IMG/VR virus record: IMGVR_UViG_3300030389_001699 | Coordinates: 1-27,477 of that record | DNA from: a virus | DNA: 27,477 nucleotides | Strand: one strand, 5' to 3' | Shown here: positions 15,616 to 27,329 of the stretch, one piece after another | How positions within the stretch are numbered: the stretch's first letter is position 1 | Layout: every line of letters begins with the position of its first letter | The notes under the pieces: model-generated | What the model was told of the DNA's origin: nothing | Database searches by the model: none | Seen by the model: only the letters and a program-made list of their open reading frames with translations | Position numbers and translations under genes: made by a program

Positions 15616-15959
15616 TCACTACCCAATATTTTACTAACAGAACTAGGATTTATTTTATTATTTATTTTTGCTTCTATGTCAGATTTGATTGCTGCTACAT
15701 TATCAGCACCTAGATTATCTTCTACCCAATTTTGAACAATTTCTGATGTTAGATCAGACCATGCTATGAAGTTCGATAAATCACTTGTATCTAAATAAAC
15801 TCTCCCTCTTTTGATTGCAAAATGAGGGTTGTCGTTATCATCTAAATTAGAAATATCTATACCTTTAATTATGTAATGCACTTTATGAACAACATCTGAT
15901 AATCCATCTTTATTCGGATAAACTTCGCAATTCGATACATCCCATTCGAAGTTAATCAT
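15612..15959 (-). CDS. DUF7936-like conserved phage protein
   Basis: A 115-residue protein: 'FEWDVSNCEVYPNKDGLSDVVHKVHYIIKG' (residues 4-33), a beta region with 'AIKRGRVYLDTS', then 'FIAWSDLTSEIVQNWVEDNLGADNVAAIKSDIEAKI' (residues 64-99) and a tail. I associate the pattern 'D.L.DVV..VHY/W' plus '(F)..(Y/W)..LT.E.V..WV...LG...V..I...L...I' with the small DUF7936 family found next to tail fibre genes in marine phages. Its function is not known; a role in fibre or tail assembly is inferred from position. It starts at a TAATG overlap with the fibre gene and ends at an ATGA overlap with the terminator-like gene. Confidence 0.6.
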   Translation of the reverse strand: MINFEWDVSNCEVYPNKDGLSDVVHKVHYIIKGIDISNLDDNDNPHFAIKRGRVYLDTSDLSNFIAWSDLTSEIVQNWVEDNLGADNVAAIKSDIEAKINNKINPSSVSKILGSE

Positions 15960-18900
15960 TATGCAGCACCTTTAAGTAGTTGTATTTCATTTTGTAAGAC
16001 TTCAATTTGATCTTGTTGTTCTTGTATAGCTTTCACTAAATTAGGAACTAGAGGTGCATAATCAAGCATCCATTTTTCTGTATCTGAGCCAACTGTGACA
16101 CCTCTTGCATATTCACCTATATCATCAAATGCTTGTTTGTATGCTTGAGCAGAAAAACCACATCCATCAGTCACACCTGTTTCTTCTCTTGTATATTTAA
16201 TTGGCTCTAGTTTTGAAATTAAATTAAGTCCACTTGCTTCACCAGTAATGGTTTTGTATCTTTCATCTGATTCTACTGCTAATGTCATTGCATCACCTGA
16301 GTTGTCATAGTCTATTTTTCCTAAACTATCATTGTTGTTTTTCTTATAAAATCTTATAAATCTGTAAAAAGAAGCATCACCAGTATCGCTATCAAGAGCT
16401 AAAACTGCATCGTCATTAGCACCTGTTTTTTTGACATTCAATGCTTCATTTTCAAATGTTGTTCCACTACCAATGCGAACTAACTCACTTGTATTTATGA
16501 CACCATCTGATTCAATAGCAAATCTTAAATTTTGACCATTAGTGTAAAAGTCTATTGATCCTGTATCTGTTCTAAATGAAAAGTCATTAGCACTACCACC
16601 TGATTTAAGAGCATTACCACCACCAATAAAACCATAGTTAGTTGAGCCATCAGTCAAAGATATACCTGTATTTCCTGTTCCTGCTGTTAGCGATAAGGTG
16701 TTGCCATTCCATGTAGCATTTGCTTCAGCTTCTAATGTATCTGCTGTGCCACTTCCAGTTATTAATCTATTGTCTGCATTATTGTTGATTGTTGTGCCAC
16801 CACCTGAGACAGAAAAATCTAAAGTGCCATCACTATCTTGATAAGTGACAGATATACCTGATTCGGTATTTGATGACACCATTGCACCAACTGTATCTTG
16901 AATCACCTCTGTTAAATCAATGTTTGCAGTTCCATCGAAAGATACTCCATGTATGGTTCTTGCAGTCTCTAAAGCTGTTGCTGTCGCTGAATTACCAGTA
17001 GTATCTTGGTTCAATGTGCCTACAACTAAATCTATCGTTCCATCTGCATCTTGATAGGTAGCAGTAATTCCTGTTTCTGTATTAGAACTAAACATCGCAC
17101 CGACTGTATCTTGTATGACCTCTGATAGATCAATATTACCTGTGCCATCAAAAGACACCCCATGAATAGTCCTTGCTGTTTCTAGTGCTGTAGCTGTTGC
17201 TGCATTTCCTGTTGTGTCTTGGTTTAAAGTGGCAACAACAAGATCAATAGTTCCATCGGAATCTTGGTAGGTCGCAGTTATACCTGTTTCTGTATTTGAA
17301 GAAAACATTGCACCCACTATGTCTTGTATTTCTTCTGCTGTTTGGTCAGCAGTTGCATTAGCTTCTATGCCATTTAATTTTGACAGTAGTGCATCTGTAA
17401 AGGCATTTGTGTCACTATTACTTTCATAGGCTGTTTTGATCTCCGAAGCTGTTTGATCTGCTGTAGCACTTGCTTCTATACCATCAAGTTTGTTTTTAAG
17501 AGTTGTTGTAAAATCGTTAGCTGTTTGTGTGGCAACGACTAAATCTATTGTGCCATCACCATCTTCATAAGTTGCTGTAATACCTGTTTCTGTATTACTT
17601 GAGAACATAGCACCTACTGTATCTTGTATAACTTCAGATAGGTCTATATTTGCAGTTCCATCGAAAGATACTCCATGTATAGTTCTAGCAGTTTCAAGAG
17701 CAGTAGCAGTAGCAGCATTTCCAGTTGTATCTTGATTTAAAGTTGCAGAAACAACTAAGTCTATTGTGCCATCACTATCTTCATAAGTAGCAGTTATATT
17801 AGTTTCGGTGTTGCCACTAAACATAGCCCCAACTGTATCTTGTATAACTTCAGATAGATCAATGTTCGCTGTTCCATCAAAACTGACACCATGTATTGTT
17901 CTAGCTGTAGCTAATGCTGTAGCTGTTGCTGCATTTCCTGAATATTCTGAATTGATACCTAGATTAGTAAGAGCATTTGTTTTTTGTGTGCTAGTAAGAC
18001 CTTGATTGCTGACATCTATTCTTAGTCTGTTGCCTAAACTTGTTGCTGTTGTAGTAGAAAAGTTTGCATCATCACCTAGTGCAGCAGCTAACTCATTCAA
18101 TGTATCTAATGTTGAAGGTGCTGAATCTACTAAATTACTTATTGCTGTATTGACAAAAGATTGAGTAGCATAGCTGTTTGTTGTCAAAAATGAATTGACT
18201 CTTGCATCTGTATAGTAAAGATTGCTTGATCCTTCGCTGAGATTATCTGTATCAAAAGAAGATAAAGATACAACAAGATCAATAGTGCCATCGGAATCTT
18301 GATAAGTTGCTGATATGCCAGTTTCAGTATTAGAACTGAACATTGCACCTACAATATCCTGAATCTCCTCTGAGGTTTGATCTGCTGTTGCACCTGACTC
18401 TATAGCATTAAGTTTTGAAAGCAGAGCATCGGTAAAAACATTTGAATCAGAAGCAGACTCAACAAGTGTTCTTATTTCAGCAGCAGTTTGATCTGCTGTA
18501 GCACTTGCTTCGATACCATCTAGCTTTGAATGGTCTGCATCTGTAAAAACATTTGAATCACTAGCTGATTCTACAAGTGTTCTTATCTCCGAAGCTGTTT
18601 GATCTGCTGTAGCATTTGATTCGATAGCATTGAGTTTGTTAAGTAGTGTTGTTGTAAAGTTATTATCTGATTGTGTAGCCACAACAAGATCAATAGTTCC
18701 ATCGCTATCTTCATACGATACTGTTATGCCTGTTTCAGTATTGCTGCTAAACATAGCACCAACAATATCTTGCACTCTTTCTGTCGTGTGGTAAAGATTG
18801 CTAGATCCTTCGCTGAGATTGTCGGTATCAAAAGAAGATAGAGATATAACTGGTGTCAATGTATTAGATGAATCATTATAAGTAAAACTTATACCTGTGC

Positions 18901-19549
18901 CATTCTGTAAAAGACTAGCAACTCTGTCATCAACTCTTTCATTTGTAAAATATAAGTTGCTTGATCCTTCAGATAAATTGTCAGTATCTTTTGCTGCAAG
19001 TCTTGTATCAAATCTAGTGTCGGTATAATAGAGATTAGAACCTTCAGATAAATTGCTTGTTGAGAATGGTGATAGTGTGACTGTAGGTGTAAAAGTATTG
19101 CTTGAATCGTTGTAAGAAAAACTTATACCTGTGCCTGATTGAAATAAAGCACTTATTCTGTCATCTACTCTTTCATCGGTATAGTAAAGATTGGTATTCT
19201 CTGAAAGATTAGCTGTTGTTAGTTCTGCAATATTACCTGAAGCATCCCTAAAGACTGCTTTGCCTGATGGTTGAGTAATAAATACATTTTTTGTGCCTGT
19301 TGAAAAACTTACAGCACTATTAGAATTGGAACTGGATAATACTGTTGTCCTCGCTAATGTATTGCTTGAATATGTGCCAAGACCTACTTCAAATTGTGTA
19401 TCACCAACAATAGCATAGTAAGTAGTATCATTATCCGATAAAACAGAAGAAAAAGTCCTAAAACCTGTGACAGCACCACCCAATGTAATAGTGCCTGTTC
19501 CTGTTGTGGTTGTTGTTTCTTTTACTCTATCTCTTACTTTTAATGCCAT
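15959..19549 (-). CDS. Tail fibre with C-terminal S74 intramolecular chaperone
   Basis: A 1196-residue fibre. The N-terminal region (about 1-100) carries a beta-rich attachment domain. The shaft consists of protein repeats: at least four 'LSEGS.NLYYT..RV.D' units, five 'LN.IE..ATADQT..EI' units, seven 'QD.VGAMFSSNTETGI' units and four 'TARTIHGVSFDGTANIDL' units. A 'TGIS..DGS.N..G.IGGG' beta region and a '.GS.TTFENEALNV' region follow. The last 103 residues, from 'SDERYKTI', form a peptidase-S74/endosialidase chaperone domain with 'LEPIKYT', 'GFSAQAY', 'LDYAPLVPNLVKAIQEQQ' and a terminal coiled coil. This domain helps the trimer fold and usually cleaves itself off just before the Ser-Asp, here near residue 1094. 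It probably binds the receptor. Confidence 0.85.
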   Translation of the reverse strand: MALKVRDRVKETTTTTGTGTITLGGAVTGFRTFSSVLSDNDTTYYAIVGDTQFEVGLGTYSSNTLARTTVLSSSNSNSAVSFSTGTKNVFITQPSGKAVFRDASGNIAELTTANLSENTNLYYTDERVDDRISALFQSGTGISFSYNDSSNTFTPTVTLSPFSTSNLSEGSNLYYTDTRFDTRLAAKDTDNLSEGSSNLYFTNERVDDRVASLLQNGTGISFTYNDSSNTLTPVISLSSFDTDNLSEGSSNLYHTTERVQDIVGAMFSSNTETGITVSYEDSDGTIDLVVATQSDNNFTTTLLNKLNAIESNATADQTASEIRTLVESASDSNVFTDADHSKLDGIEASATADQTAAEIRTLVESASDSNVFTDALLSKLNAIESGATADQTSEEIQDIVGAMFSSNTETGISATYQDSDGTIDLVVSLSSFDTDNLSEGSSNLYYTDARVNSFLTTNSYATQSFVNTAISNLVDSAPSTLDTLNELAAALGDDANFSTTTATSLGNRLRIDVSNQGLTSTQKTNALTNLGINSEYSGNAATATALATARTIHGVSFDGTANIDLSEVIQDTVGAMFSGNTETNITATYEDSDGTIDLVVSATLNQDTTGNAATATALETARTIHGVSFDGTANIDLSEVIQDTVGAMFSSNTETGITATYEDGDGTIDLVVATQTANDFTTTLKNKLDGIEASATADQTASEIKTAYESNSDTNAFTDALLSKLNGIEANATADQTAEEIQDIVGAMFSSNTETGITATYQDSDGTIDLVVATLNQDTTGNAATATALETARTIHGVSFDGTGNIDLSEVIQDTVGAMFSSNTETGITATYQDADGTIDLVVGTLNQDTTGNSATATALETARTIHGVSFDGTANIDLTEVIQDTVGAMVSSNTESGISVTYQDSDGTLDFSVSGGGTTINNNADNRLITGSGTADTLEAEANATWNGNTLSLTAGTGNTGISLTDGSTNYGFIGGGNALKSGGSANDFSFRTDTGSIDFYTNGQNLRFAIESDGVINTSELVRIGSGTTFENEALNVKKTGANDDAVLALDSDTGDASFYRFIRFYKKNNNDSLGKIDYDNSGDAMTLAVESDERYKTITGEASGLNLISKLEPIKYTREETGVTDGCGFSAQAYKQAFDDIGEYARGVTVGSDTEKWMLDYAPLVPNLVKAIQEQQDQIEVLQNEIQLLKGAA
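16800..18760 (-). repeat. Tandem protein-coding repeats in the tail fibre gene
   Basis: Within the fibre gene, units encoding 'VGAMFSSNTETGI..(T/S)Y.D.DGTIDLVV' recur seven times, interleaved with 'TARTIHGVSFDGTANIDL' units. Protein identity between units is very high, while many third-codon positions differ (for example GTATCTTGAATCACC and GTATCTTGTATGACC for the same residues). The duplications are therefore old and under selection on protein sequence. They could still act as sites for recombinational length change. Confidence 0.75.
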
Positions 19550-22030: not shown

Positions 22031-23314
22031 TTAAGTAGTCACAATGTCTTTACATAATGAAAAGGCATTTTCGTCTCTGATTGCGACATCCATATCTTGG
22101 AAGAAAGCAAGTCTTGTTGTTCCTGCTGAACTTCCTGTATATGGATCAACTACTACATCAACACCTGAGTAATATCCAAGCATTAATTGTGAGAAGTCAC
22201 CAAATAGTAGAGCAGATAGGTTTGAACCTGATCCTTTCGACAAGTCGGATGGCACTAATGAAGATGATAAGTAGTCATAACCAAGCATTTGATTGTTTGG
22301 TTCAAGAATAAAATTACCTTCTACACCACTAGACTGTTTTGATGTTGTTCTCAACTTAGCAGTCACTTTTGCATTTCCTATGAAGTGGACACTACCATCA
22401 TTTCTGATTGCATTATCTTCTTCAACTGCTTTTATCAATTCGACAATATTTGCATAAGATATAGCAGCACCATTTGATCCAAGACCTACAACATTGTTAG
22501 ATACTGAGCCAATAAGCCCACTTGGTTCATTTGATCCACCACCTTCAATAGCAACACCATCAATTTTTCTTGCGAAAGATTGAATAATATCGTCTCTGAC
22601 TATCTGTTCAACAGATGGATCAGATTGCATCATTAATTTTCTGCTCAAGTCTATGAAACAAGCTAAAGTCTTTGGAGACATTGTGACTTGTGCATAAGTT
22701 TGACTTGATTCGGAAGGTGCTGAGTTTTCTGCTACAAATGAAGCATTGTTTACTGAAGATGAAAGTTTTGGAATAGCAACATCGCCTTTAAGTCCTTGTA
22801 AGACTCTAGCACCTGCTTGTCCAATAACTAGATTTTCATAAACTGCTTCGATGAACTCATTACCAAGATGATCTGTTCCTTTTAAGAATCCACCACCTGA
22901 GTTTGAGCCAACAGTTAAATCCCTTTTGCCAAAACCAATATTTGTTGGCATATAGAATCCTCTTGCAGCTTTGCCAGTTTGAGCAGCTATTTCATCAGAA
23001 ACTTCTCTTTCAAGTCCTGATAATTTGCCACTTGCACTTTCTCTGATAGCTTTGATAAGAGAATAATCTCTTTTCTCTGCTACATTCATATCGACATCGG
23101 ATGGTAAATCCAATGGCTTATCGTTTGCGATTGCACCTAGAAGTTTACCTCTAAATTGTTCAAGAGTTTCACCATTTGCGATTGACTCATGTGCTAAGTC
23201 TCTCTTGTTGTGTTGAACACCAAGATCAATAATAGCTTTTGATTCTTTAGCAAATTGTTCTCTTAACTCATTAGGATTTACTTCAGGAACATTATTAATT
23301 TCTTTTGTTTCCAT
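22031..23314 (-). CDS. Major capsid protein from an internal start (nested)
   Basis: In-frame ATG at 23314, residue 603 of the long frame, is preceded by AAGGAAAATAAA, a convincing ribosome-binding site. Initiation here would make a 427-residue HK97-fold capsid protein. It consists of a helical delta-like N-terminus ('NPNELREQFAKESKAIIDL...'), the 'KRDYSLIKAIRESASGKLSGLEREVSDEIA' linker, and the capsid body from about residue 140 onward ('GGGFLKGTDHLGNEFIEAV', 'QGLKGDVAIPKLSS', 'FIDLSRKLMMQSDPSVEQIV'). Prohead protease probably removes the delta region. Overlapping genes with shared C-termini are known for lambda C/Nu3. The site is visible; its use is predicted. Confidence 0.6.
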   Translation of the reverse strand: METKEINNVPEVNPNELREQFAKESKAIIDLGVQHNKRDLAHESIANGETLEQFRGKLLGAIANDKPLDLPSDVDMNVAEKRDYSLIKAIRESASGKLSGLEREVSDEIAAQTGKAARGFYMPTNIGFGKRDLTVGSNSGGGFLKGTDHLGNEFIEAVYENLVIGQAGARVLQGLKGDVAIPKLSSSVNNASFVAENSAPSESSQTYAQVTMSPKTLACFIDLSRKLMMQSDPSVEQIVRDDIIQSFARKIDGVAIEGGGSNEPSGLIGSVSNNVVGLGSNGAAISYANIVELIKAVEEDNAIRNDGSVHFIGNAKVTAKLRTTSKQSSGVEGNFILEPNNQMLGYDYLSSSLVPSDLSKGSGSNLSALLFGDFSQLMLGYYSGVDVVVDPYTGSSAGTTRLAFFQDMDVAIRDENAFSLCKDIVTT

Positions 23315-25120
23315 TTTATTTTCCTTATTGTTAATGGGTTTAATTTCAATTTTTGTTTGTGCTTTTTCTATATTTCTTGCGAATCCAACTGACGGACTGG
23401 AATCAGCAGGAATTGAAACTGCACTAACCTCTAAAGGAGACCAAGAATTGACTCTATAGATAGGAACACCCTCTCTTTCTTCATCTTCCTTTTCCATACT
23501 GTTGACTTGATAGCCGACAGATATGTTTTGTCGTATGCCATCTTTCACATCTTGAAAGACCTCGTCAGCCATTCTATTTTTAGAAAAGCGAACTTTAGCT
23601 ACTGTTCTTTTATTTGATTTATCTATTCCAAACTCCTCAACTACTCCTATTTGTTTGGTTGCATCGTGATCTAGTAAAAGTGGACTTCTACCACTTGCCA
23701 TAAATTCCATATCTATTTCTTCTTCGTTATGTCCTAAAACTTCAAAACCAAATCTTCTTTGAACTGGTTTCTCACTTGATACACCAATTACAACTGTTCT
23801 TTTTTCTTCGTTTATTTTCTCTCTATCGAAATCAAAGTTTCTTTTTAAATCTTCTTTGGCATAAAAATCTAATATTTCTGAATGTGATCTATCTTCATCT
23901 TCTTTATAGCCTTTTTCTTCTTCATCGTGATGTGCTTTTTCTTCTTCATCGTGATGTGCTTTTTCTTCTTCTTCTTCATCTTCATGGTAAGGTCTATCTT
24001 CTTCCATTTGTCTTGTTGCAATTTTGCCACCCATACCTTCGTGATTCACACAATAATAATAAAGATCAGGTGTGTCATCATCTACCATGATTTTTATACT
24101 TGCACCTTCTTCACCTGCTTTACCATTTATTTCAACACCTTGTTTATATTCCTCACCTTCGTTATGTGAACCATCTTCTGTTGCTGAGAATCTAAGAGCA
24201 TGAGTTTTATTTGAAGAATCGCTTACATCGAAAATATATTCATTGCCTGAAAGCATAGTAAGACTTGGTGAGTTCTCACCATCTAAATAAAACTTGTTCC
24301 CTTCACCATATTTGTTTTCACCTTCTTTGATGATAACTTTATATTCTATGGTTTCTTGCCTTGTTTCATCATTCATATCAGCTATTCTATCACCATTTTC
24401 TTTAGAAGATAAAGGATGTTCTTTCGGAAGTAGGTCTGTATCAAATTTGTTTTTACTTGGGAATCTCAAATTTCTAAGGGCAAATAGAAAGGCATTTACT
24501 CTCGCATAAGCCCATTGTTCAGGTGATGCCACACTTGGTCTGACCGAAGATGGGTTAGTTTTATATGCACCTATACCTCTTTCAAAGACTGCCAACAACA
24601 TTCTATAAGTGGCTCTTTTTCTTTTATCATCACCATATTCTTCATTGTGATCTTCTACTTTTTTTCTCAATCCCTTTTCAACTGTTTTACTTACTTGCCT
24701 TTCTGCTGATCTATCTTCTTTATCTTCTAAGTATTTGACAGCTTCTAAAATTACATCTTTCATTTTTTGTTCACCTAATGTTCCTATTACAAGCCATTTA
24801 ATCTGAGCCACTACACCTGCAATATTAGATGGTCTTGCTTTTTTATCACCTGACTTAAACTGTCCACCATCTTCAAAATGTCTTGCAGCCCATGATTCTC
24901 TTTCTTTTATCTTTCGTAAAACAGCAGGAGAATCATCACCATCTAATGCTCTTAATAGTAATCTGTAAGAGTTGTTGCCTTCAATGTTTCCACCTGCTTT
25001 CCATATCTTAGGATCATCTTCTTTTATAGAAGCAGCAAAGTTCCTATCAAACAAAGGATAGTTAGAATTTCTTAGTGATATTTTTTTATCATCACCTTTT
25101 TTAGGAAAGTCAGTTGCCAT
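22031..25120 (-). CDS. Head polyprotein: accessory domains, prohead protease and major capsid
   Basis: A 1029-residue protein. Residues about 45-240 hold two helical modules ('RESWAARHF', 'EQWAYARVNAFLFALRNL') that I have seen in virion proteins but cannot name. Residues 258-366 resemble a cupredoxin, with candidate copper ligands His307, Cys357, His360 and Met363 ('YYYCVNHEGMGG'). Residues 371-412 are acidic, His-rich repeats. Residues 425-582 are an HK97-type prohead protease: His485, Ser534 and Glu564 with spacing close to HK97 gp4. From residue 603 comes the HK97-fold capsid protein. Fused protease-capsid genes are known in other phages; the added N-terminal modules are unusual. Expected to be cut by its own protease during maturation. 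Its ATG overlaps the preceding small gene by 11 bases. Confidence 0.85.
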   Translation of the reverse strand: MATDFPKKGDDKKISLRNSNYPLFDRNFAASIKEDDPKIWKAGGNIEGNNSYRLLLRALDGDDSPAVLRKIKERESWAARHFEDGGQFKSGDKKARPSNIAGVVAQIKWLVIGTLGEQKMKDVILEAVKYLEDKEDRSAERQVSKTVEKGLRKKVEDHNEEYGDDKRKRATYRMLLAVFERGIGAYKTNPSSVRPSVASPEQWAYARVNAFLFALRNLRFPSKNKFDTDLLPKEHPLSSKENGDRIADMNDETRQETIEYKVIIKEGENKYGEGNKFYLDGENSPSLTMLSGNEYIFDVSDSSNKTHALRFSATEDGSHNEGEEYKQGVEINGKAGEEGASIKIMVDDDTPDLYYYCVNHEGMGGKIATRQMEEDRPYHEDEEEEEKAHHDEEEKAHHDEEEKGYKEDEDRSHSEILDFYAKEDLKRNFDFDREKINEEKRTVVIGVSSEKPVQRRFGFEVLGHNEEEIDMEFMASGRSPLLLDHDATKQIGVVEEFGIDKSNKRTVAKVRFSKNRMADEVFQDVKDGIRQNISVGYQVNSMEKEDEEREGVPIYRVNSWSPLEVSAVSIPADSSPSVGFARNIEKAQTKIEIKPINNKENKMETKEINNVPEVNPNELREQFAKESKAIIDLGVQHNKRDLAHESIANGETLEQFRGKLLGAIANDKPLDLPSDVDMNVAEKRDYSLIKAIRESASGKLSGLEREVSDEIAAQTGKAARGFYMPTNIGFGKRDLTVGSNSGGGFLKGTDHLGNEFIEAVYENLVIGQAGARVLQGLKGDVAIPKLSSSVNNASFVAENSAPSESSQTYAQVTMSPKTLACFIDLSRKLMMQSDPSVEQIVRDDIIQSFARKIDGVAIEGGGSNEPSGLIGSVSNNVVGLGSNGAAISYANIVELIKAVEEDNAIRNDGSVHFIGNAKVTAKLRTTSKQSSGVEGNFILEPNNQMLGYDYLSSSLVPSDLSKGSGSNLSALLFGDFSQLMLGYYSGVDVVVDPYTGSSAGTTRLAFFQDMDVAIRDENAFSLCKDIVTT
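23911..23958. repeat. 24-bp exact tandem repeat
   Basis: Two identical 24-base units (23911-23934 and 23935-23958), followed by part of a third, lie inside the head polyprotein gene. They encode 'EEEKAHHD' units in the acidic, His-rich linker between the cupredoxin-like domain and the protease. The exact DNA identity shows a recent duplication and suggests the linker length can vary between relatives. Confidence 0.8.
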
Positions 25121-25268
25121 TGTTTACAACATCACCCTCAAAGTTGCATTTTTCTTCTTCGTGCATATCTATTTTTTCCTCTCTAGGATCACCAAATATT
25201 TTAAGCCAGTTTTCGATAAACTCTTTGTCTGATATTTTCTTTGGTCTAATCTTGCTGCCTTTACTCAT
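25110..25268 (-). CDS. Small hypothetical protein between portal and head polyprotein
   Basis: A 52-residue protein from ATG 25268 (an ATG at 25274 is possible). AAAGGTGAAG lies upstream within the end of the portal gene. Sequence: basic start 'MSKGSKIRPKKISDKEF', 'IENWLKIFGDPREE' in the middle, then an acidic tail with one Cys. It overlaps the portal stop and the polyprotein start. A gene here often encodes a small scaffold or head-assembly factor, but no family is recognised. Confidence 0.6.
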   Translation of the reverse strand: MSKGSKIRPKKISDKEFIENWLKIFGDPREEKIDMHEEEKCNFEGDVVNNGN

Positions 25269-26745
25269 CTTCATCTTCACCTTTCTGTATTTCAGCATCG
25301 ACTGGCATCTTCATAGCACCATAAGGTTGATAAGCCATAGCAATATCATATTGTTTAGCAAGTTCTTCTTCTCTTTGATGTTGTTCAAATAGTTCTTCAA
25401 CATCCCTACCATAATTTGACTGAACATCTTGCATAGTGATAACACCTGCATTGAGTCCATCAACATTAGCTTTGACTTCCTTCGTCGGATCAATCCAGCC
25501 CCATGAGCGAGGTATGTATATCATATTGTCAGCAAACTTATTGTATTTATCAGGTGGTAGTAAGAAGTTATCTTTGAAAGACATAGTTTGTAAAAGCCAA
25601 TGTCTAAATACTGGTTCAATAAAGTGTTCAATCATAAACTTCTGTAGTATTCGATAGTTATCTCTTTCTTCTAATGTGCCTTGCCTGATTGATGAATAGT
25701 TTACACCTTCAAGATTGTTAGCAAGTGAGACATAAGATACACCAAGTCCTGATGCTATACCTCTAAGGACTGCTTTCTGAAAAGAGTCAAATGAAGATGT
25801 TGGATGTTGAGGATCGAATGTTTTAAAATCCATGCCTTCAGGCAGTTGTTCAAATGTTCCTGCTTCAGCACTCATAATTGGTGTATAGTCATCTTCTTTA
25901 TCGTCACCAACATAACCATCACCTGCATCAGAAATAAAGAAACCCATTTTACTAGCCCCAATCCTAGCACTAACGAGTTCAGCTTCCAAATAGCCATCGA
26001 GCATTTTCATACCACTTAATGCTGTTGTCATAAATGGTAGCCCTCTAGTTTGTTCAGGTCTTTCTGATTGATAAGCATGAATTATATCTTCTGCTTTGAC
26101 TTCAATATGCTTTCTATTGTATTTACCATGATAGTTATTATGAGGATGTTCTTGGAACAACATATAAGCTATCGGTTTTTTAAATTTATCTAGCTTGACA
26201 CCCATAATGATTTCTTGACCATTATTCAAGTTTTCATTCTTTTCTTCATCAAGATAATCAGCGTCTAAGAATTGTATTCTGTATGGATCAAGTGGGTTGT
26301 TTGTTTTGATATGTCTTACAAGCACTTCACCATCCCTTGCAAGTGTTTCAATGAATAGTTTTTGTGCATCTAAGAAGGACATTTTGCCATCTATTGTGCA
26401 ATTACCCTTCTTACTCCACTTTCTAAACTCTCTTTCTATAATCTGATTGCCGATAAAATCTAAGCTATTGTCCTCATTTCTTGCTTTGGATTGTATTCTG
26501 ATACCATTCTGACCGACAACATTAGTCACTAATAGCTGCAAATATCGTCTTGCATACTGGTTATTTCTTGCTTGATCTCTGCATCTATCTCTTATTTTTC
26601 GTAGATTAAATCTGATATTGCTGTCTGCATTACTAGATGAACCAAAAAAATCAGCAAATAAATTACCTGAATTACTTGCTTTATAGTTTCTTCTTCTTCG
26701 TATTTGCTTTTTTCTGCTTTTAAACAGTCTATCCCATACAGCCAT
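25261..26745 (-). CDS. Portal protein (lambda B-type, Phage_portal_2)
   Basis: A 494-residue portal. It begins with a basic region ('RLFKSRKKQIRRRRNY'), followed by 'NLRKIRDRCRDQARNNQYARRYLQLLVTNVVGQNGIRIQSKA' (residues 48-90), the hallmark 'R.RSR...RNN..A......NVVG.G' motif of the lambda-B portal family. Then come 'FIETLARDGEVLVR' and 'IQFLDADYL', and the conserved 'YSSIRQGTLEERDNYRILQKFMIEHFIEPVFRHWL' near residues 350-385, followed by 'PRSWGWIDPTKEVKA'. Twelve subunits form the channel for DNA entry at one capsid vertex. The C-terminus is acidic (EIQKGEDEDE). It starts at a TAATG overlap with the connector gene. Confidence 0.9.
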   Translation of the reverse strand: MAVWDRLFKSRKKQIRRRRNYKASNSGNLFADFFGSSSNADSNIRFNLRKIRDRCRDQARNNQYARRYLQLLVTNVVGQNGIRIQSKARNEDNSLDFIGNQIIEREFRKWSKKGNCTIDGKMSFLDAQKLFIETLARDGEVLVRHIKTNNPLDPYRIQFLDADYLDEEKNENLNNGQEIIMGVKLDKFKKPIAYMLFQEHPHNNYHGKYNRKHIEVKAEDIIHAYQSERPEQTRGLPFMTTALSGMKMLDGYLEAELVSARIGASKMGFFISDAGDGYVGDDKEDDYTPIMSAEAGTFEQLPEGMDFKTFDPQHPTSSFDSFQKAVLRGIASGLGVSYVSLANNLEGVNYSSIRQGTLEERDNYRILQKFMIEHFIEPVFRHWLLQTMSFKDNFLLPPDKYNKFADNMIYIPRSWGWIDPTKEVKANVDGLNAGVITMQDVQSNYGRDVEELFEQHQREEELAKQYDIAMAYQPYGAMKMPVDAEIQKGEDEDE

Positions 26746-27329
26746 TAGAACCTTACCTTTATAGTGTTGCCTGTATCTTGTTTGTTTTTAATTCTTTTCA
26801 ATTTAAGTTCTTTTAGATACTCTGCTCTGTATCTTGCTCTAAAAGTAAGCAGATCATCAATAGACATTCTTGATAATGACCTTCCTGCAATACTATAACT
26901 CATTTGGTCTTGTGATGCTCTGTTCTCTAAGACAGCTTCAATGCCATCAAGCACTTTCTTAACATGGGTTCTATTGTCAGCACTAGAGTTAGCTAAATTT
27001 ATTTCTAATGTAGTGTGTCCTGTATCAACTGAAAATCTATTGGAATCTGAGGATCTTGTTATATATGCAGTCCAGTTATATTCACCTGCAACATAATCTC
27101 TTGTGGTTGCAGAATTAACTTCAATGACATAATCGGTTGAAGTTTCAGATGCAGTAATAGAAAATTTGTTAGAACCACCACTATCTTCATTGAAGTTATA
27201 TGTCAAAACAAAACTGCTTGGATCATATACTGATGCAAGATCAGGTCGTCTCCATACAAATCTGTCACCAACGATTAGGGTATCAGGTTCTTGTGTCGGA
27301 TAATTAGCTGTCTCGAATAAATTTTCCAT
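26745..27329 (-). CDS. Head-tail connector, gpW-like C-terminus
   Basis: A 194-residue protein directly before the portal gene, the place of lambda W. The first 125 residues are beta-rich ('DTLIVGDRFVWRRPDLASVYDPSSFVLTYNF', 'NKFSITASETSTDYVIEV', 'AGEYNWTAYI'), resembling small immunoglobulin-like virion modules. The C-terminal 60 ('VLDGIEAVLENRASQDQMSYSIAGRSLSRMSIDDLLTFRARYRAEY') match gpW-like connectors with their 'Y.I.GR.L.R....(D)L......' core. The extra N-terminal domain is longer than lambda W. No Shine-Dalgarno is seen upstream of ATG 27329. Joins capsid portal and tail, or contributes to DNA packaging. Confidence 0.75.
   Translation of the reverse strand: MENLFETANYPTQEPDTLIVGDRFVWRRPDLASVYDPSSFVLTYNFNEDSGGSNKFSITASETSTDYVIEVNSATTRDYVAGEYNWTAYITRSSDSNRFSVDTGHTTLEINLANSSADNRTHVKKVLDGIEAVLENRASQDQMSYSIAGRSLSRMSIDDLLTFRARYRAEYLKELKLKRIKNKQDTGNTIKVRF

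Follow-up and report, generated by a model that had tools for sequence, protein, structure and literature searches.

The open reading frame described here raises the question of why a phage head gene should carry, ahead of its protease and its capsid protein, a domain that resembles a blue-copper protein, and of how such a gene could deliver that domain to the phage particle. The frame lies on the minus strand of a viral contig of 27.5 kb with a GC content of about 34%; the window, that is, the whole stretch of DNA analysed, comprises 27,477 nucleotides. It encodes 1029 amino acids from an ATG start codon, and by this protein its closest annotated relatives are marine Roseobacter siphophages. 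Genes for a portal protein and a head–tail joining protein adjoin it, which gives the standard head-gene order (Table 1). A first-pass annotation had described the product as a capsid polyprotein in which helical modules, a cupredoxin-like domain, a His/acidic linker, an HK97-type protease and the HK97-fold capsid protein share one frame, and all the residues that it named are found at their positions in the protein. Three features go beyond that description: the cupredoxin-like domain is mobile, the front half of the protein is exchangeable, and the gene has a conserved internal start.

Table 1. Features of the head gene and its neighbours in the window
Feature	Position	Strand	Basis
Long ORF: module cassette, protease, delta region, HK97-fold capsid protein	22031..25120	(-)	
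Slot-1 helical module Nhel, residues 1-133	24722..25120	(-)	Relatives: unrelated WGGD module instead
DUF5824-like helical module, residues 134-235	24416..24721	(-)	PF19141, slightly under cut-off
Cupredoxin-like domain, residues ~255-369	24014..24358	(-)	AF2, structure matches and profiles
Predicted metal ligand His307	24200..24202	(-)	
Predicted metal ligand Cys357	24050..24052	(-)	
Predicted metal ligand His360	24041..24043	(-)	
Predicted axial metal ligand Met363	24032..24034	(-)	
Acidic/His linker, residues 370-425, tandem AHHDEEEK repeat	23846..24013	(-)	
Peptidase_S78 prohead protease, residues 427-586, triad H485/S534/E564	23363..23842	(-)	
Predicted internal Shine-Dalgarno AAGGAA upstream of M603 ATG	23321..23326	(-)	
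Predicted nested delta and major capsid protein, 427 aa, from M603 (ATG 23312-23314)	22031..23314	(-)	
HK97-fold capsid domain, residues 742-1028	22037..22897	(-)	Pfam and relatives
Portal protein (context)	25261..26745	(-)	phrog_21 E 7e-95
Head-tail joining protein (context)	26745..27329	(-)	phrog_5774 E 2e-35

One frame from exchangeable modules to capsid protein

The HK97-fold capsid domain and the S78 protease domain both score above their Pfam cut-offs, PF05065 (Phage_capsid) matching residues 752–1024 with E 2.7e-33 and 116 bits (cut-off 24.2), and PF04586 (Peptidase_S78) matching residues 479–585 with E 2.4e-8 and 34.7 bits (cut-off 21). The proposed catalytic triad is invariant in 81 distinct relatives, which bears out the assignment to the HK97-type proteases. 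The single frame claimed for modules, protease and capsid protein is likewise that of 109 distinct relatives, in which protease and capsid are continuous; they come from viral contigs and from cultured phages (CRP-821, CRP-811, CRP-406, VP882, ep3, S-LBS1 and RcCronus). Since the identical fusion recurs in more than 100 relatives, the doubt that a sequencing error had joined separate genes is ruled out. The same S78 protease, delta region and HK97-fold capsid protein are found in one frame in MD8, VP882 and ep3 (PHROG 617), and the work on phage MD8 states that protease, scaffold and capsid are all encoded by one gene (PMC8508860). Special to the present gene are the ~425 N-terminal residues of exchangeable modules ahead of the protease, whereas in VP882, ep3 and RcCronus the protease begins at residue 33–39, with almost nothing before it.

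At least seven modules make up this cassette among the relatives, namely Nhel, WGGD, DUF5824, cupredoxin, Hva1_TUDOR-like, PYPNEH and CysHis (names coined here). In all, 13 module combinations occur, or 14 if the bare protease–capsid form is counted; the set of relatives is enriched for cupredoxin carriers through the search design, so that these counts carry no population frequency. Slot 1 holds either Nhel or WGGD. The DUF5824 match of the window, at residues 134–213, falls slightly under the curated cut-off (E 2.3e-4 to 5e-5), and the family passes the Pfam cut-off in relatives (L091), as does Hva1_TUDOR in L065 and L204. An AlphaFold2 model of Nhel and DUF5824 is helical and of low confidence (pLDDT 68), and had no match in the PDB, so that no function can be read from structure; searches with Pfam and PHROGs recognised no enzyme domain in the cassette. 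The cupredoxin stands before DUF5824 in most of its carriers; the window and two others have the reverse order. In the relatives L056–L059 it alone is missing, the remaining protein being 75–77% shared, and a short 'RHIKDIRETDESYIVEFAK' segment replaces it between the blocks 'NGDRI.NMD.E.R' and 'EE.RPYH..EE'. Behind the cupredoxin of the window, the paired histidines of the linker had been put forward as a further place for metal; the AHHDEEEK sequence is a local tandem repeat, and HH occurs in just 16 of 94 relatives, which argues against a conserved site there. In these phages the head gene serves as a slot for the swapping of small domains, and is possibly a route by which different proteins enter the head.

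Fold and predicted metal site of the third module

Structure prediction and comparison, which the first-pass annotation had proposed as a check, favour the cupredoxin fold. The AlphaFold2 model of the domain, built from 41 sequences, has a pLDDT of 87 and a pTM of 0.83, and the Foldseek list against the PDB is dominated by blue-copper proteins (CueO, AcoP, copper nitrite reductase and small laccases), with E values of only ~3e-3 and zero entries below 1e-3. Alignment of rusticyanin to the model gives Z 8.1, with an rmsd of 2.8 over 99 residues (VIA-align). Taken alone, a Z near 8 would be weak; the case is carried by the consistent kind of protein matched, by the ligands and by the profile comparison. 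The Greek-key β-sandwich of cupredoxin type is thus supported at fold level only, the Z being moderate. Against a PF00127 profile made from 18 true PF00127 proteins of bacterial genomes, hhalign returned a probability of 86% and E 5e-6 with the Cys, His and Met ligands in register, and with a broader profile 63% and E 7e-5, as compared with a probability of 0.2% for an unrelated profile used as negative control; these E values refer to single pairwise comparisons. However, the domain of the window has no PF00127 match and no Pfam family passes its cut-off there, while the PF00127 matches in 8 of 41 domain members are all below cut-off (best E 0.014). No relative with a solved structure was found at the sequence level, where the domain profile gave weak antibody matches alone, and the window contains no further cupredoxin copies. 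On the model and these comparisons, residues ~255–369 can be assigned to the cupredoxin fold with high confidence. No published description of this domain was found among papers available without subscription.

In the model, H307 immediately precedes a strand, C357 closes the penultimate strand, and the loop ahead of the last strand contains H360 and M363. Judged by topology, this placement of the ligands relative to the strands is as in cupredoxins. The type-1-like set that the first-pass annotation had pointed out is conserved in homologues, H-C-H-M being complete in 126 of the 128 distinct copies with all positions present; the two exceptions, copy 2 of L192 (N-S-S-Y) and copy 1 of L265 (V-A-A-T), lack all four ligands. 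Some scans of the collection used patterns with the C–H motif, and a recount limited to copies caught by ligand-free patterns found HCHM in 65 of 66. The cupredoxin inside the polyprotein has a dN/dS of ~0.16, and the codons of the His and Cys ligands vary synonymously only (CAT:CAC 16:15 at H307). This all-or-none retention, together with the synonymous-only variation, indicates that the four residues act as one functional unit. From conservation and predicted fold, the presence of a functional metal site in the domain is very likely, and metal would very probably be bound in the manner of blue-copper proteins. For copper specifically the case is evenly balanced: phage proteins fold in a cytoplasm with negligible free copper, and either copper would be loaded only once the cell has lysed or another metal would take its place.

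Set beside the blue-copper proteins (plastocyanin and azurin of PF00127, rusticyanin), the domain has the same predicted fold and strand topology, the same His...Cys-x2-His-x2-Met set and a similar last strand, GxYxYxCxxHxxMxGxIxV, with amicyanin as the counterpart in CxxHxxM spacing. It differs from them in lying below the Pfam cut-off, in the longer insertion between the first His and the Cys, and in having YYYCxNH and not the usual CxPH; it is also made in the cytoplasm within a head precursor, and its metal is a predicted one.

A conserved internal start signal and the probable products of the gene

At the junction between protease and delta region, an in-frame Met is present in 109/109 distinct relatives, mostly preceded by AGGA, AGGT or GGAGG at the usual spacing. 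The median Shine–Dalgarno (SD) pairing is -5.9 kcal/mol at this Met versus -2.1 at 1888 other internal Mets (p 7e-40, the sequences not being independent), and pairing reaches -5 at 84 of the 109 junctions versus 337 of 1916 equal-size control windows. The internal SD–ATG is found in CRP-821, CRP-811, CRP-406, VP882, ep3 and RcCronus, and in weak form in S-LBS1. The peptide around the junction Met differs between relatives, and therefore protein constraint does not explain why Met and SD are kept. That the internal start is stronger than the first one holds on average, with better pairing in 57 of 79 relatives, but fails for the window (-6.2 at the internal start versus -9.5 at the first); with a good SD at both starts, the two products could be of similar abundance in this phage. 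These signals make a nested capsid start at M603 likely, and the gene probably makes both a stand-alone capsid protein and a long form with protease and modules inside the prohead; given the conserved internal start, a cassette on each newly made capsid subunit is unlikely.

Lambda C/Nu3 is a nested protease–scaffold gene (cited in PMC8508860). In both cases a single frame encodes a protease-bearing long form together with a shorter product that starts internally, the latter being predicted here. The nested product of lambda is the scaffold, whereas that of the present gene would comprise both scaffold and major capsid protein. What marks a gene of the C/Nu3 kind, a conserved in-frame start with an SD at a domain junction, is found in the window gene. 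For the phages with protease, scaffold and capsid in a single gene (the MD8, VP882 and ep3 group), the accessible parts of the literature yielded no published description of an internal start, which is how such phages could escape a 1:1 ratio of protease to shell.

The explanation that fits best, and that we consider moderately probable, is a two-product head gene with an exchangeable cassette that includes a metal-binding cupredoxin. The internal ribosome-binding site and the ATG of M603 would give the stand-alone delta and capsid protein, building most of the shell, and the first ATG would give the long form, whose C-terminal capsid part would be incorporated into that shell. In HK97-type heads the parts N-terminal of the delta region face the prohead interior, so that the long form would hold the protease and the N-terminal modules inside in sub-stoichiometric amounts; for the same reason, the earlier idea of a decoration domain displayed outside is unlikely. 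The activated protease would then remove the delta regions and separate the cassette from the shell. The cupredoxin, as third module of the cassette, would bind a metal (copper being the likeliest) through its invariant His-Cys-His-Met, which would form a type-1-like site, and once freed it would remain in the head, undigested, as an internal or ejected protein. This last step, the retention of the module in the mature head, is proposed tentatively and is open to considerable doubt. It is a long way further, and a small chance, that marine phages would carry one and the same cupredoxin module outside, on tail fibres and baseplates, and inside the head, and release a metal (copper) protein into the host; if this were true, phage particles would be copper ligands in seawater as well as vehicles for a redox protein.

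Several other explanations have to be weighed against the two-product gene. The domain could be a true metal-binding cupredoxin with a purely structural task, that is, a metal-stabilised spacer or stability module in the transient front of the precursor, which is digested on maturation. HK97-type proteases commonly digest scaffold, the domain is mobile among many unrelated phage structural proteins, and close relatives manage without it, which means that it is not essential for assembly. However, the retention of all four ligands or none in every context exceeds the needs of a spacer, and the occurrence of the domain in bacterial and archaeal lipoproteins suggests a binding function; on balance a structural role of this sort is rather unlikely. 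No more likely is a cupredoxin-like shape that holds another metal, such as zinc or iron, or a redox- or peroxide-reactive Cys/Met site. The cytoplasm in which phage proteins are made is reducing and copper-poor, both Zn and Cu(I) are possible partners of a site made of one Cys, two His and one Met, and the hhalign support for PF00127 is moderate; yet the H...CxxHxxM spacing and the topology fit blue-copper proteins, and the bacterial and archaeal relatives include lipoproteins with lipobox-like N-termini, a setting that has copper available and in which cupredoxins are commonplace.

The nested start itself would be coincidental if the gene made a plain 1:1 polyprotein, in which each capsid subunit carries cassette and protease and is then cleaved. 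One continuous frame in all relatives is what this would predict, and it was proposed for phage MD8, with no internal start described in the accessible part of that paper (PMC8508860). The capsids of relatives measure 59–64 nm (PMC12629253). By our estimate, if each of the ~415 subunits carried ~600 extra residues (~66 kDa), these would take up well over half of a T=7-sized prohead of ~60 nm, and Met and SD are kept at the junction in 109 relatives despite the differing peptide, so that we regard a 1:1 polyprotein as improbable. Least probable is an ordinary Ig-like phage surface domain with no metal, whose likeness to cupredoxins would be convergent. Cupredoxin and Ig folds are both Greek-key β-sandwiches, and the weak antibody matches of the sequence profile could be taken in this sense, but those matches have E 0.05 or worse and lack the ligand set, while the structure matches are mostly cupredoxins and the ligands are conserved.

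Related head genes and the same domain elsewhere

The CRP-822-type roseophages share the organisation of the head gene, with a WGGD/DUF5824/PYPNEH cassette and an internal SD–ATG; CRP-821, CRP-811 and CRP-406 have no cupredoxin module, unlike the window. Their gene is annotated as major capsid protein only, and the word 'protease' is absent from the main text of the report (PMC12629253). Polyvalent proteins and MuF- or portal-fused phage modules are also head-gene fusions with exchangeable small domains, for which packaging and ejection have been suggested (PMC5512222, which mentions neither cupredoxin nor copper); the carrier here is instead the protease–capsid protein, and its modules include no recognised enzyme domain. 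Virion proteins of marine phages are known to have metal sites elsewhere too, in the iron-binding HxH motifs of tail fibres ('Trojan horse'; PMC11705849), although metal site, fold and location differ from those considered here. Should copper be present in the particles, it would have to be counted alongside iron when the metals carried by marine viruses are budgeted.

The cupredoxin-like segment occurs far more often than expected by chance: at 372 places in 314 phage records, at 446 places in viral contigs and, among marine bacteria and archaea, at 62 loci in cellular genomes. The phage records are mostly of cyanophages, and the proteins concerned are annotated as tail fibre, baseplate wedge or virion structural protein. 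By this distribution the cupredoxin-like domain is a mobile module, and it appears to represent an undescribed cupredoxin family common to phage virions and to marine bacterial and archaeal lipoproteins, with the ligands complete in each of these settings. Among the cellular carriers, Gammaproteobacteria, SAR86 and Marine Group II archaea have proteins of ~290–390 aa whose N-termini are lipobox-like, and Photobacterium and Flavobacteriaceae have proteins of more than 4000 aa. Part of the 62 loci in cellular genomes are phage-like.

Predicted internal start at the protease/capsid junction

A Shine-Dalgarno sequence followed by an ATG lies inside the head gene, where the protease gives way to the capsid protein; among single-gene protease-capsid phages it is conserved in 109 relatives at this junction, with VP882, ep3, RcCronus and roseophages also having it.

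Variants and distribution of the cupredoxin-like domain

One domain copy (collected locus L192) has lost all four predicted ligands while the remainder is kept and, judged from these residues, is a natural metal-free control. A subfamily within tail-fibre-like proteins (L045, L047-L050, L052, L249) has CxxHx3M spacing (CxxHGNxMG), one residue longer.

The domain also lies downstream of the N-terminal part in a phage-like family beginning 'MARFASGRKTYGISDRSGFRY' (L205-L208, L211, L228, L230, L262), twice in L211. Putative lipoproteins of ~170-440 aa (L217, L218, L220, L256, L232, L237, L243, L250), from marine Gammaproteobacteria/SAR86 and from archaea of Marine Group II, have it as their C-terminal part and are apparently an undescribed family.

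A Cys/His-rich cassette module

A further module (CANCVAFDI...GELGYCWMHHFKCHSARTCHTW), found in L124 and L126, had no matches in Pfam or PHROG. It has the look of another metal-binding module occupying that cassette slot.

Coordinates of the features
Feature	Position	Strand	Remarks
Tail-fibre-like protein	window 15959-19549	-	1196 aa; numerous near-identical repeats (IQDIVGAMFSSNTETGI..., TARTIHGVSFDGTANIDL)
Junction Shine-Dalgarno and ATG	window 23312-23326		
Domain copy without predicted ligands	L192:6330-6653		inside >3100 aa protein
Cys/His-rich module	L124:4483-6087
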